From Cytophagaceae bacterium (GTDB lineage: Bacteria; Bacteroidota; Bacteroidia; Cytophagales; Flexibacteraceae), in assembly GCA_027490155.1 (NCBI GenBank), contig JAIXYP010000005.1, positions 186,001-250,000 on the forward strand: a stretch of 64,000 nt of DNA, written 5' to 3'. Positions 10,766 through 46,827 of this stretch are shown here, piece after piece (position 1 is the stretch's first letter; each line of letters starts with the position of its first letter). The position numbers and the translations under genes were made by a program. Under the pieces are notes generated by a model. That model had not been told where the DNA came from. It saw nothing but the letters and a program-made list of their open reading frames with translations, and did no database searches.

Positions 10766-10961
10766 GGCAAATCTGCCAGCTTTCGGGCATGGCCTCTCCG
10801 AAATGTAACAAATAGATAGCATAAGCATTAGCCTTTCGGAATAGCATGTAGAGGCTCTGGCCATTAAACAGAACGTGTAGGTTTGGCTGAAGCAGCCTTA
10901 TGAGCCTATTAGCTTAGGGTCTATTGGCCTAATATTTGGCCAACTATCGTCGTTATACCCT

Positions 10962-10969
10962 TACTTTTG
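10962..10969 (+). promoter_or_regulatory. -7 promoter element of the LptF/G gene
   Basis: TACTTTTG, full match to TAnnTTTG, 18 bp before the ATG at 10987. It also shows that a more upstream in-frame start (10936) cannot be used from this promoter. Confidence 0.65.
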
Positions 10970-10986
10970 TAGGGCAGTCCTGCTAT

Positions 10987-12552
10987 ATGATCAAGAAACT
11001 AGATAAACTCATCCTGTCGGCATTTATTGGCCCTTTGCTGGTCACGACCTCGGTTTTGGTTTTTATCTTCTTGGTCCAGTTCCTGATCATGAACTTTGAC
11101 TCGCTGATTGGCAAAAACTTGCCCATAACGGTTTATTTGGAGCTTATCTTCTATCTCAGCCTCCAGATGATCCCGCAGGTGCTGCCACTTGGCTTTTTGC
11201 TGGCAGCCCTGATCACGTATGGCACCTTGGGCGAGTTCAGCGAGCTGACGGCCATCAAGTCCAGCGGTATATCGCTTGTGCGTGTTATTCAGCCTGTCCT
11301 TGTGCTTGTTGTTGTGCTATCTGGTGCCGTGATCCTGTTCAGCAATTACGTGCTGCCCAAGACCAATCTGCAAGCATTCTCATTGCTTTATGACATCAAA
11401 ACCAAAAAGATGGGCTTTAGCCTCAAGCCAGGCTCGTTCTACTACGGCCTGCCTGGGTATGCCATAAAGGCCAATGAGGTGGATCCAGATGGCCGTCATC
11501 TTAAGGAAGTCATTATTTATGACCACAGCGATGGGTCGGCCAACAAGAAAGTAACGGTGGCTGACAGTGGGCAGATGTACACCATCCTCAGCGATCGGTA
11601 TCTGGTGCTAGAGCTTTATAGTGGTACCAACTATAGCGAGGTGGCGGAGCAAGGCGGTTTAGGGCAGGAGTTCGTCCGAAACAAGTACAGTAAAAGCAAA
11701 ATAGTTTTTAGTCTTAGCAGCTTTGACCTAAGCCGAACACGTCAAGAGCTGTTCTCGGGCCATAAATTCATGCGCAACATCGGCCAATTGGGGCATGATA
11801 TCGACAGCATGAAACGGGTCAAGACGGAGGCTATCGACAACTTTAGGTCCAACCTCATGGCCTACTATAACTACATCAGCAAACCGACCAAACCCTCCGA
11901 TGTAGGCAGAAAGCCCAGCCCGGCCATATTGAAGATGGTCCAGAAACAGGATGCGGGCAATGCCGACGATAGGAAGTACTTCCTGTATATCGCGACAAAT
12001 CAAGCTCGTAACATCAAGAGCTTCAGTGCTGGTTTTGCAGAACATTATAAGGAGCTGAGCCGGATGTCTAACGAGTACCGCATTGAGATGCAGAAAAAGT
12101 TCACCTTGGCGGTTGCCTGTATCGTCTTGTTCCTGATTGGGGCACCGGTTGGCAGCATCATCCGGAAGGGAGGTCTTGGCGTTCCTGTCTTGGTCGGGAT
12201 CGTTTTCTTTATCCTATACTACATCCTGTCCATCGTGGGCGAGAAGTGGGCCAAGGAGGGTGTAGTAGATGTTTATCTAGGCCTTTGGGCTTCCAATGTG
12301 ATTTTATTGGGCGTTGCTTTGTTCTTTTTGCAGCAAGCTCGCCGAGATGCAAGCCTATTTGACCTAGATTTTTATAGCTCCTTCATTGGACGGATCAGAG
12401 GGCTATTTGCACCCAAAGCGATCGTAACCCTAGTATCAAACGAAACGAGCGATTTTGTAGAGCTGCCGAACGAAGCCCTTAGACAAGCGATTATTAGCGA
12501 GAAGGATAAGGCTGAGATCAGCACCCGGGAGCCTAAATCGGCATCGGAGTAG
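10987..12552 (+). CDS. LptF/LptG family permease (YjgP/YjgQ)
   Basis: 521-residue inner-membrane permease of the LPS export ABC complex LptB2FG, which extracts lipopolysaccharide from the inner membrane for transport to the cell surface. The N-terminal half has three membrane helices (about 7-30, 45-85 and 95-120) with the motif LPLGFLLAALITYGTLGEFSELTAIK. A large periplasmic jellyroll-like region follows (about 140-360), then three C-terminal helices starting at KKFTLAVACIVLFLIGAPVG and a hydrophilic tail. The ATG at 10987 is chosen because the -7 promoter lies between it and the upstream alternative. LptF and LptG cannot be told apart from this copy alone. A hairpin at 12580-12623 probably ends the transcript. 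Confidence 0.9.
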   Translation: MIKKLDKLILSAFIGPLLVTTSVLVFIFLVQFLIMNFDSLIGKNLPITVYLELIFYLSLQMIPQVLPLGFLLAALITYGTLGEFSELTAIKSSGISLVRVIQPVLVLVVVLSGAVILFSNYVLPKTNLQAFSLLYDIKTKKMGFSLKPGSFYYGLPGYAIKANEVDPDGRHLKEVIIYDHSDGSANKKVTVADSGQMYTILSDRYLVLELYSGTNYSEVAEQGGLGQEFVRNKYSKSKIVFSLSSFDLSRTRQELFSGHKFMRNIGQLGHDIDSMKRVKTEAIDNFRSNLMAYYNYISKPTKPSDVGRKPSPAILKMVQKQDAGNADDRKYFLYIATNQARNIKSFSAGFAEHYKELSRMSNEYRIEMQKKFTLAVACIVLFLIGAPVGSIIRKGGLGVPVLVGIVFFILYYILSIVGEKWAKEGVVDVYLGLWASNVILLGVALFFLQQARRDASLFDLDFYSSFIGRIRGLFAPKAIVTLVSNETSDFVELPNEALRQAIISEKDKAEISTREPKSASE

Positions 12553-12781: not shown

Positions 12782-12818
12782 AAAAAAAAACAGCTTGAAC
12801 GAAAGTCGATCAAACTGT
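12782..12818 (-). terminator. Intrinsic terminator of the orphan RNA
   Basis: Nine-bp stem ACAGTTTGA/TCAAGCTGT (one G-U pair), an 11-nt loop, then eight T on the minus strand. Confidence 0.85.
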
Positions 12819-13008
12819 TAAACTACCTATTAATACACCAAATTAACCAAAAAATAGTCTTGGTAGTGAGCTGTTGAGGATTCGAACCTCTAGGTAAATC
12901 TCAAGTGGCATACCGCAGGAGATTTGGCCCTTACGCCAAGTACAGTCAAAAAAGGAGGTCGAAGAATCTTTCAGCAAACTTCCTTTGTCGAGGCATCATG
13001 TGTTTCGA
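12782..13008 (-). ncRNA. Orphan small RNA (~225 nt), cloverleaf-like core, family not recognised
   Basis: An independent RNA gene is inferred from signals on the minus strand: a full-match -7 element TACTTTTG (13014-13021), about 225 nt without a substantial ORF, then an intrinsic terminator (12782-12818). The middle (about 12872-12952) folds like a tRNA. A closing helix GACTGT pairs with ACAG(C)TC. A D-arm-like hairpin is TTGGC/GCCAA with GG in the loop. A 7-bp stem AAATCTC/GAGATTT takes the anticodon-arm position but has a 16-nt loop. A T-arm-like hairpin is GAGG-TTCGAAT-CCTC. The 5' part has two competing helices (TGTCGA/TCGACA and GTCGAA/TTCGAC) and a possible 17-codon ORF starting ATGATG near 12995. 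It matches no tRNA, tmRNA, RNase P or 6S signature I know. No gene lies downstream on this strand, so it is not an mRNA leader. Confidence 0.6.
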
Positions 13009-13013
13009 CACCA

Positions 13014-13021
13014 CAAAAGTA
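13014..13021 (-). promoter_or_regulatory. -7 promoter element of the orphan RNA
   Basis: TACTTTTG on the minus strand, full match to TAnnTTTG. No protein gene lies downstream on this strand before the terminator at 12782. Confidence 0.6.
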
Positions 13022-13131
13022 GGTGTTAGACGGGTAAGTTTAAAATATTTCTAGTCTTTTGTCTCAAAATTTACAAACTCTTTAATTACTTGGCATCCGA
13101 AATAACAAACTCTCAAAAACTCCGTCCCAGA

Positions 13132-13599
13132 ATGGCCGCCAATTTAGACATTGACAATGTGGACCTCAAAATTCTGTCCCTGCTGATGGAAGATGCTAAC
13201 ATGCCATACACCGAAATCGCAAAGCGAGTGTATGTATCTGGTGGCACTGTTCATGTCAGGATGAAGAAGATGCAGGAGCTTGGCATCGTTACTGGTGCCT
13301 CGCTCAAAATAGACCATAGCAAGCTGGGATATGACATTGTTGCCTTTCTGGGTATCTACCTCGAAAAGAGCTCGCAGTATCACGAAGTAGCAGATCAGCT
13401 GATCCGGATTCCGGAGATCGTTTCTGTCCACTACACTACAGGCATCTACTCGATCTTCGCTAAGATTGTCTGCAGGGATACCAAACACTTACGCAACGTC
13501 CTGCATGACAAGATCCAGAACGTTAAGGGCATCCAGCGTACCGAAACTTTCATATCACTAGAGGAAAGCGTAGAGCGATCCGTCAAGTTGGAAATCTAA
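13132..13599 (+). CDS. Lrp/AsnC-family transcriptional regulator
   Basis: 155 residues. The N-terminal winged helix-turn-helix (about 6-55) has the AsnC-type pattern DNVDLKILSLLMEDANMPYT followed by the recognition segment YVSGGTVHVRMKKMQELGI. The C-terminal RAM/ligand-binding domain (about 70-150) includes VHYTTGIYSIFAKIVCRD. These regulators form octamers that respond to amino acids. The ATG at 13132 is preferred; a TTG at 13090 would add 14 residues outside the domain. No linked amino-acid gene is adjacent, so it probably acts globally. A strong terminator follows at 13666-13696. Confidence 0.92.
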   Translation: MAANLDIDNVDLKILSLLMEDANMPYTEIAKRVYVSGGTVHVRMKKMQELGIVTGASLKIDHSKLGYDIVAFLGIYLEKSSQYHEVADQLIRIPEIVSVHYTTGIYSIFAKIVCRDTKHLRNVLHDKIQNVKGIQRTETFISLEESVERSVKLEI

Positions 13600-46175: not shown

Positions 46176-46324
46176 GAGGACTTGTAACCAATTGTCTGCC
46201 GACGGAGAACATTTGTTACAAAGTCAAAAACAAGGGGATTGAGGACCCATAGGCCAACAAAACACCATAAGATGACCCCGCACAAGCCTTTTTCCCGAGG
46301 CAGTTGTTGAAGGAAATTTGCAAA

Positions 46325-46520
46325 AGGCAGGTCTCCTGGCTTGCGTCTCGGTGGTCACTCCTTCCCAAAGACTGCCAAGGCAGCACTTCAGTGGAGGTAG
46401 GGTCTAGCCAAGCTAGATGTCCTACTAGATAACCATGAGCTAATAGCTTACAGTTGCGGGTACAGCTGCCGCTTAATGACGGCATTCCCATTTTCAGCAT
46501 TCCAGACGCGCCCTTAAAAA
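46325..46520 (-). promoter_or_regulatory. Cobalamin (AdoCbl) riboswitch
   Basis: The minus strand shows the canonical elements in order: GGGAATGCCGT, the core CTGTACCCGCAACTGTAAG, a peripheral arm, CCACTG, then the B12 box GCCAGGAGACCTGCC (46327-46341). About 150 nt separate the B12 box from the btuB start, and this contains the expression platform (a C/G-rich stretch around 46280-46300 can pair). Cobalamin binding would shut off the btuB-btuG-like operon. A TACCTTCG (46551-46558, 7 of 8 bases of TAnnTTTG) is the probable promoter. Confidence 0.95.
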
Positions 46521-46827
46521 TGGCCGATCTGGGTTGCACCTATTGTAACACGAAGGTACGGCAAAATCTGATGTTTTGCTAGTGCATAGTACTGTGGAGG
46601 CTAGAGCGGAGTTGGTAACTGTTGGCTTGCTGACCTAACTACTTTGGGTATTGTTGCCAACCTCATAAGGTAGATAAGACGGTGTTTTAATAGGTTGTCC
46701 GCGGTACTAAAAAAAGCAAATGGCTATGGTAATGATTGACTTTTGCCCTCTCGGTGTTACCTTGCAGCTTAGAATCAGTCTTGATAAAATAGGGTTGACC
46801 AAATTCAAAAGTCAGCTCACCAGCACC

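Follow-up and report, generated by a model that had tools for sequence, protein, structure and literature searches.

A phylum-wide RNA family with a tRNA-like domain, usually paired with asnC in Bacteroidota

The window (the whole stretch of 64,000 nucleotides that was analyzed) carries on its minus strand a gene for an RNA of ∼225 nt that runs from a promoter box at its start to an intrinsic terminator at its end. The first-pass annotation had called this RNA an orphan, but it belongs to a phylum-wide family that is usually paired with asnC, the gene for a regulator of the Lrp/AsnC type. In relatives, the 5′ part of the RNA is a cloverleaf of the tRNA-Leu type with a long insert in the variable arm, which is a well-supported assignment. 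In the window copy this domain is eroded. The strongest constraint falls on a C-free segment of 35 nt before the terminator (hereafter the trailer), which had not been singled out before. We favor, with a probability of roughly 0.4, a reading of these sequences in which the RNA would act in trans under the control of AsnC, with a layout like that of GcvB and the trailer as its working end.

Results

The RNA gene in the window

The window locus is a real RNA gene (Table 1). Its promoter box has the form TAnnTTTG, the Bacteroidota −7 consensus; the count of loci sharing the box excludes L011, where the locus ends at a contig end. At the 3′ end, 8 of the 13 pairs of the terminator stem are changed on both sides among six relatives. 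Box and covarying stem bear out the earlier claim of a stand-alone gene with a promoter and a strong terminator. A scan of the window with an E. coli model reported neither the promoter nor the terminator of the RNA gene. Compared with the copy in a sister genome, there are 0 changes in the 73 columns of trailer and terminator, 14 in 328 columns elsewhere and 5 in the 80 of the tRNA-like part; since ∼3 changes are expected in 73 columns, the constraint seen in this comparison is just suggestive. The 17-codon ORF that had been proposed in the leader does exist and is open in the sister genome, but it is probably not coding, because all five substitutions, judged by eye, alter the amino acid.

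Table 1. Coordinates of the RNA gene, its parts and its neighbors in the window
Feature	Position	Strand	Basis or remark
RNA gene	12782-13021	-	∼225 nt
−7 promoter box TACTTTTG (TAnnTTTG)	13014-13021	-	Identical box at 11/11 homologous loci having upstream DNA
5′ leader	12948-13008	-	Start site estimated a few bases past the −7 box; contains 17-codon ORF 12999-12946
Eroded tRNA-like domain	12868-12947	-	Positional counterpart of relatives' cloverleaf; segment fold; R2 detects T arm only; intact in relatives and at G000:C40
T arm GAGG-TTCGAAT-CCTC (T-loop 12886-12880)	12876-12890	-	R2 match, 10.8 bits
C-free trailer TTTTTTGGTTAATTTGGTGTATTAATAGGTAGTTT, 35 nt	12820-12854	-	Most conserved part; 9 genomes of the bacterial family share the exact 26-nt core; 0 changes vs sister genome
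Intrinsic terminator	12782-12819	-	Stem covaries in relatives; 0 changes vs sister genome
AsnC-type Lrp/AsnC regulator	13090-13599	+	Divergent neighbor; longest ORF, internal ATG may be true start
lptF	10936-12552	+	Convergent with RNA gene

The whole RNA folds at −63.3 kcal/mol (z = −2.54), a stability equaled by 0 of 200 shuffles, and this minimum-energy fold is not a cloverleaf. Folded alone, the 80-nt core reaches −21.3 kcal/mol in a structure whose acceptor helix is incomplete and which also has two hairpins and a T arm. The family model R2, built from intact relatives, picks up the T arm alone, and R1 scores the copy at 70.5 bits in an alignment spanning trailer and terminator. The 81-nt tRNA-like cloverleaf core described in the first-pass annotation therefore stands only in part: the T arm, with its canonical T-loop TTCGAAT, and the kinship with tRNA hold, but the window copy is eroded and its minimum-energy fold is of another kind. 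A second family member in the window genome, at G000:C40 (L012), is intact. The window copy is a truncated, asnC-side member of the family that probably still works.

Searches for known identities were negative. Rfam 15 gave no match to the window RNA at the gathering score and a lone match at chance level (E = 7.5), so this check, which had been proposed earlier, assigned no family; ARAGORN made no call at the RNA gene. Identity with tmRNA, already doubted, was rejected, as RF00023 has no match at the locus and a separate tmRNA gene scoring above cut-off lies at G000:C36. The 6S-Flavo model RF01685 had no match in 11 genomes and was silent in every control genome too. A peptide encoded by the trailer was set aside, since by eye no reading frame is maintained between families. 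The regulator was matched by Pfam AsnC_trans_reg at 69.8 bits, above cut-off, and its top NCBIfam model was AsnC, at 166 bits, under the cut-off of 227. Elsewhere in the window, a cobalamin riboswitch was found on the minus strand at 46309-46530 (72.9 bits; gathering score 31.5).

Structure and covariation of the tRNA-like domain

The cloverleaf that precedes the trailer in most relatives comprises an acceptor stem TGTAAGG/YCTTACA, U8 G9, a D stem AUG/CAU and an arm CCCUC/GGGGG with the loop CUGUCUC, followed by a long variable arm, the T arm and then G C. Homologues beside the Lrp-type gene, whose covariance analysis had been suggested in the first-pass annotation, were found, and the cloverleaf of the family covaries strongly. 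Among six sequences, 12 of 40 pairs are changed in both partners, where shuffles give 3.9 and 0 of 500 reach 12. In a larger alignment (A6; 55 sequences from 49 loci, hand-picked out of 97 regular-expression matches), 99.0% of 1480 cells are paired and 15 of 27 pairs have double changes, compared with 6.7 in shuffles (0 of 500 reach 15). Sliding the pairing partners by 1-3 columns reduces pairing to 51-59%. The D stem alone occurs as AUG/CAU, UUG/CAA, ACG/CGU and GUG/CAC. Note that the regular expression required TGT in the acceptor, U8 G9, GG in the D-loop, TTCRA in the T-loop and ACA[GA], such that the invariance of these elements is partly built in; it had no part in the covariation or in the invariance of C74, of CUAA and of the anticodon-type loop.

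A decoding anticodon loop is expected to have U33 and a purine at position 37. Here the loop is CTGTCTC in 33 of 55 sequences, with the conserved consensus C-N-N-U-C-U-C among cloverleaf members; T, G and C all occur at position 33, any base at position 34, and a pyrimidine at position 37 in 54/55. Such a loop would plausibly be unable to decode. A functional elongator tRNA was rejected on account of these positions, the cloverleaf itself being present in relatives and not in the window copy; the earlier view that the RNA does not look like a functional tRNA holds. The domain ends in G73 C74 in 55/55 sequences. Aspartyl identity elements are the loop GUC and G73; an aspartyl identity was set aside because position 34 varies. 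Family members do not encode CCA, but neither does either of the window's two ordinary tRNA genes, so tRNA-type maturation is possible for the family. The next-best R2 matches after members are 85-90 nt long, score up to ∼60 bits and were tRNA-Leu in 5/5 cases tested, and from this likeness we infer that the body descends from tRNA-Leu.

Tandem copies are frequent; L097 has the most, seven, of which one includes masked bases, and L100 has six. Many arrays have spacers of 10-60 nt, and trailer and terminator follow the last copy only, as if the array were one transcript; short-spaced arrays fit tRNA-type processing. At L069, L079, L081 and L010, copies lie wider apart and several have their own terminators.

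Some further features of the domain were seen. The compact member L140:2838-2917 (minus strand, G021) no longer has a variable arm, and ARAGORN calls it tRNA-Asp (atc); it retains the family signature, the loop CTATCTC and the GC end, and members of this kind could be annotated as tRNA genes by mistake. The CUAA(C) that is invariant in the variable arm is complementary to GUUAR of many trailers (e.g., GCTAACCA and TGGTTAGC in L145), which could allow long-range pairing. An apical GGGTTGACCAC motif is common to many variable arms across families (e.g., L093, L101, L144, L149, L150 and L151).

Distribution of the family

A DNA search of 39 genomes gave matches in 10, including the window genome, and the matches beyond the genus extend through trailer and terminator. 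G006, of the same bacterial family, has a variant. Among 390 genomes of the order, the sole other matches to the 26-nt trailer core were L029 and L030 (3 and 2 mismatches); both are without tRNA-like context and were rejected as family members. Eight named stretches have the trailer, and each derives from a metagenome-assembled genome under the label Cytophagaceae, Hymenobacteraceae or Spirosoma. Plasmid and phage collections, searched with one query each, gave no match, and no description of such an RNA was found in the titles and abstract openings that make up the literature searched. Being absent from Rfam and from that literature, the family is apparently undescribed; its existence is backed by covariation, synteny and co-occurrence.

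With R1, the family reaches far outside the bacterial family of the window, and 345 of 380 genomes match at E ≤ 0.01. Because weak R1 matches may include tRNA genes, spread is given here from R2 matches of at least 74 bits. By this measure 41 of 395 phylum genomes carry the RNA. Within the phylum sample it occurs in 15/15 genomes of the order to which the window belongs, in f23, f24 and f27 (other orders of the same class) and in three genomes of f67, which belongs to another class. The matches listed for f25 and f26 are at the score level of tRNA-Leu. Copy numbers are lower bounds, up to five (R1) or seven (R2) candidates having been scored per genome.

Pairing with asnC

An AsnC homologue is encoded in 33 of 61 RNA loci, and the RNA is divergent from asnC in all 26 loci where both positions were computed, at a distance of 95-237 bp. 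Regulator and RNA have a common AT-rich intergenic region in the window. In the phylum sample, the RNA lies within 1 kb of asnC (119-211 bp) in 29 of 41 RNA genomes and is unlinked in 12. Another 25 genomes were searched because AsnC was missing from their best RNA locus, and just two of them have a cloverleaf at asnC. The AsnC subfamily, delimited at E ≤ 1e-48 (a limit picked after an earlier AsnC search), occurs in 44 of 395 genomes: 41 have the RNA as well, three have AsnC alone and none has the RNA alone. The two surveys were treated as one sample because both cover 395 genomes with the same handles. The genomes counted are related and hence dependent, and relatedness inflates these co-occurrence counts. 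Two f24 genomes, G406 and G500, have neither this AsnC nor the RNA. That the pair is maintained over a class boundary is unusual, and AsnC may control the RNA. A protein that looks SufB-like from its sequence is encoded in 17 of 61 RNA loci, often along with asnC.

Loci that keep the trailer and lose the cloverleaf

In all three AsnC-only genomes, the corresponding divergent site carries a promoter box, then a short leader, the trailer known from their relatives and a hairpin that resembles a terminator; the cloverleaf is gone, and in G507 an apparent remnant of the T-loop is retained. Unfiltered R2 matches at the asnC loci of these genomes do not exceed 10 bits, and no domain-family member reaches the search threshold in G391, G507 or G736. 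Another 23 asnC loci without a model match (L156, L158-L179) were inspected by eye: trailer and terminator are present in 14, of which some retain a shrunken hairpin and T arm; the trailer is absent in nine (L156, L162, L164, L165, L173, L176-L179). Trailer and terminator are kept in 3/3 additional asnC loci of f19. Four asnC-like loci in families without the RNA (L180-L183) have no trailer by eye. The window copy belongs among those loci where trailer and terminator outlast the cloverleaf. In f19, the asnC-side RNA (L170-L172, L174, L175, L188-L190) consists of a small hairpin with an ATCTC loop, TTATATTTGGGTTTATATTC and a terminator, and is near-identical in eight genomes.

Trailer sequences vary between families and are nearly invariant inside them. 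Of 281 genomes, 36 (each from f2, f4 or f18) contain the trailer 20-mer GTGTTGTTTATTGGTTAAGG without a mismatch, and it lies 170-520 bp from asnC in the eight genomes with both places known; as a control, the reversed 20-mer gave eight matches in seven genomes at up to 2 mismatches. The arrays of f18 contain cloverleaves and lack this trailer. The cloverleaf is therefore more than a helper of the trailer, and the two modules can live apart.

Discussion

In the reading that we favor, AsnC, expected to be an amino-acid sensor, would control the RNA through the common AT-rich intergenic region. The RNA would act in trans, its trailer pairing with A/C-rich stretches of mRNA in the manner of the GU-rich R1 region of GcvB. 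The tRNA-like domain would be an upstream module for maturation or stability, excised by tRNA-processing enzymes and for that reason dispensable wherever the RNA is produced without this step. The copy beside asnC in the window genome has lost most of the domain and kept the trailer; an intact one lies at G000:C40. In favor of this reading are a divergent arrangement with one regulator that recurs in different families and on either side of a class boundary, the co-occurrence of RNA and AsnC, the layout shared with gcvA-gcvB, the short-spaced tandem arrays, and survival of the trailer after loss of the cloverleaf. The 12 of 41 genomes in which RNA and asnC are unlinked, the 9 of 23 asnC loci where no trailer was seen by eye, the f18 arrays and the differences in trailer sequence between families count against this reading. 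Complementarity of the trailer to the start regions of 311 genes (∼1/10 of the genome) was no better than that of 60 shuffled trailers, among which it ranked 26 for the mean and 33 for the best 20. Given this negative result, pairing to mRNA is to be taken as one hypothesis beside protein binding and tRNA mimicry.

The tRNA-like domain could itself be the working part. The RNA would then be a non-decoding RNA of the tRNA-Leu type, matured like a tRNA, controlled by AsnC and serving as decoy or carrier for a tRNA-handling protein (a synthetase, a modification enzyme or a starvation sensor), with arrays raising its dosage and the trailer concerned with termination or stability only. The strong covariation, the conserved loop and G73-C74 would be explained, as would up to seven tandem copies, the f18 arrays without trailer and the G021 member that keeps loop and GC end without a variable arm. 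We nevertheless regard this as doubtful: several families have an eroded domain, or none, at asnC with the trailer still in place, and some such genomes (G391, G507, G736) are then without any member of the domain family at threshold. Similarly doubtful is a union of both functions, in which one AsnC-controlled transcript would yield, phylum-wide, a non-decoding RNA derived from tRNA-Leu (tandem and tRNA-processed) and a C-free 3′ regulatory RNA set free through those same cuts. If true, AsnC would sense an amino-acid signal and the response would combine a tRNA mimic with a trans-acting RNA.

A trailer that is C-free, U/G-rich, nearly invariant within families and, as judged from its sequence, unpaired would also suit a binding site, in place of a pairing seed, for an RNA-binding protein of the RRM or Hfq type; the RNA would then store, titrate or guide that protein. 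The lack of complementarity to start regions above that of shuffles is in keeping with this, and none convincing was found to rRNA and tmRNA loci (flanks included), where 5 to 46 of 60 shuffled trailers paired equally well and pairing was rejected; the rRNA of G003 was used for this comparison because none was found in G000. There is also a precedent, in that RbpB of Bacteroides attaches to single-stranded regions in a family of multicopy sRNAs (PMC11697453). No candidate protein is tied to the family, and we consider this explanation unlikely. Decay of the window copy as a duplicate, its function moved to the intact paralogue at G000:C40, would account for the eroded domain but is quite improbable, since promoter, trailer and terminator are intact (0/73 changes against 14/328 elsewhere, which is just suggestive) and the same truncation with a kept trailer occurs in other families.

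The work adds an RNA family unreported by Rfam 15 and ARAGORN, and with it a concrete regulator-RNA pair on which amino-acid control in Bacteroidota can be tested. It also offers a natural case in which a body of tRNA type is in non-decoding use and is lost again while the 3′ end of the RNA is kept.

Among known RNAs, tRNA-Leu shares with the family the cloverleaf, the 7/5 stems, the D loop and the position of the variable arm. The discriminator of tRNA-Leu is A73; the family differs from it in G73, in a variable-arm insert of 30-100 nt in most members, in the non-decoding loop and in tandem arrays beside asnC. YrlA, a bacterial Y RNA whose partner is Ro60/Rsr, is likewise a non-coding RNA with a tRNA-like module. 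Identity with Y RNA was rejected, as a Ro60-type TROVE protein (PF05731) is absent from the window genome, G000. Of the 39 genomes searched for PF05731, eight have it, and 2 of the 11 from the bacterial family do; these TROVE/Ro60-type proteins (e.g., L013-L016) have no relation to the family RNA.

The layout resembles that of GcvB in two respects: the family RNA is divergent from a metabolic regulator (29/41 genomes; 26/26 computed loci) and has a conserved, GU-rich, C-free trailer, its unpaired state being judged from sequence. The regulator of GcvB, GcvA, is of the LysR type, a different family from AsnC. In the accessible part of PMC3879156, GcvB adjoins gcvA in opposite orientation and has a conserved, unstructured GU-rich stretch that acts on CA-rich sites in the vicinity of the ribosome binding sites of amino-acid genes; unlike in our family, no tRNA-like domain is described there. 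Allo-tRNAs are class II tRNA-like RNAs with unusual anticodons; they were rejected as an identity because the acceptor branch given in PMC7609411 is 8/4 or 9/3, compared with a 7-bp acceptor and a 5-bp T stem here. FopS, by its description, is a similar case of a multicopy sRNA family of Bacteroidota (Bacteroides) with a conserved unpaired motif, and differs in that the accessible part of PMC11697453 mentions neither a tRNA-like domain nor a link to AsnC. As a regulator-linked RNA, the family is one variant within a known kind; the tRNA-like domain joined to it sets the family apart.
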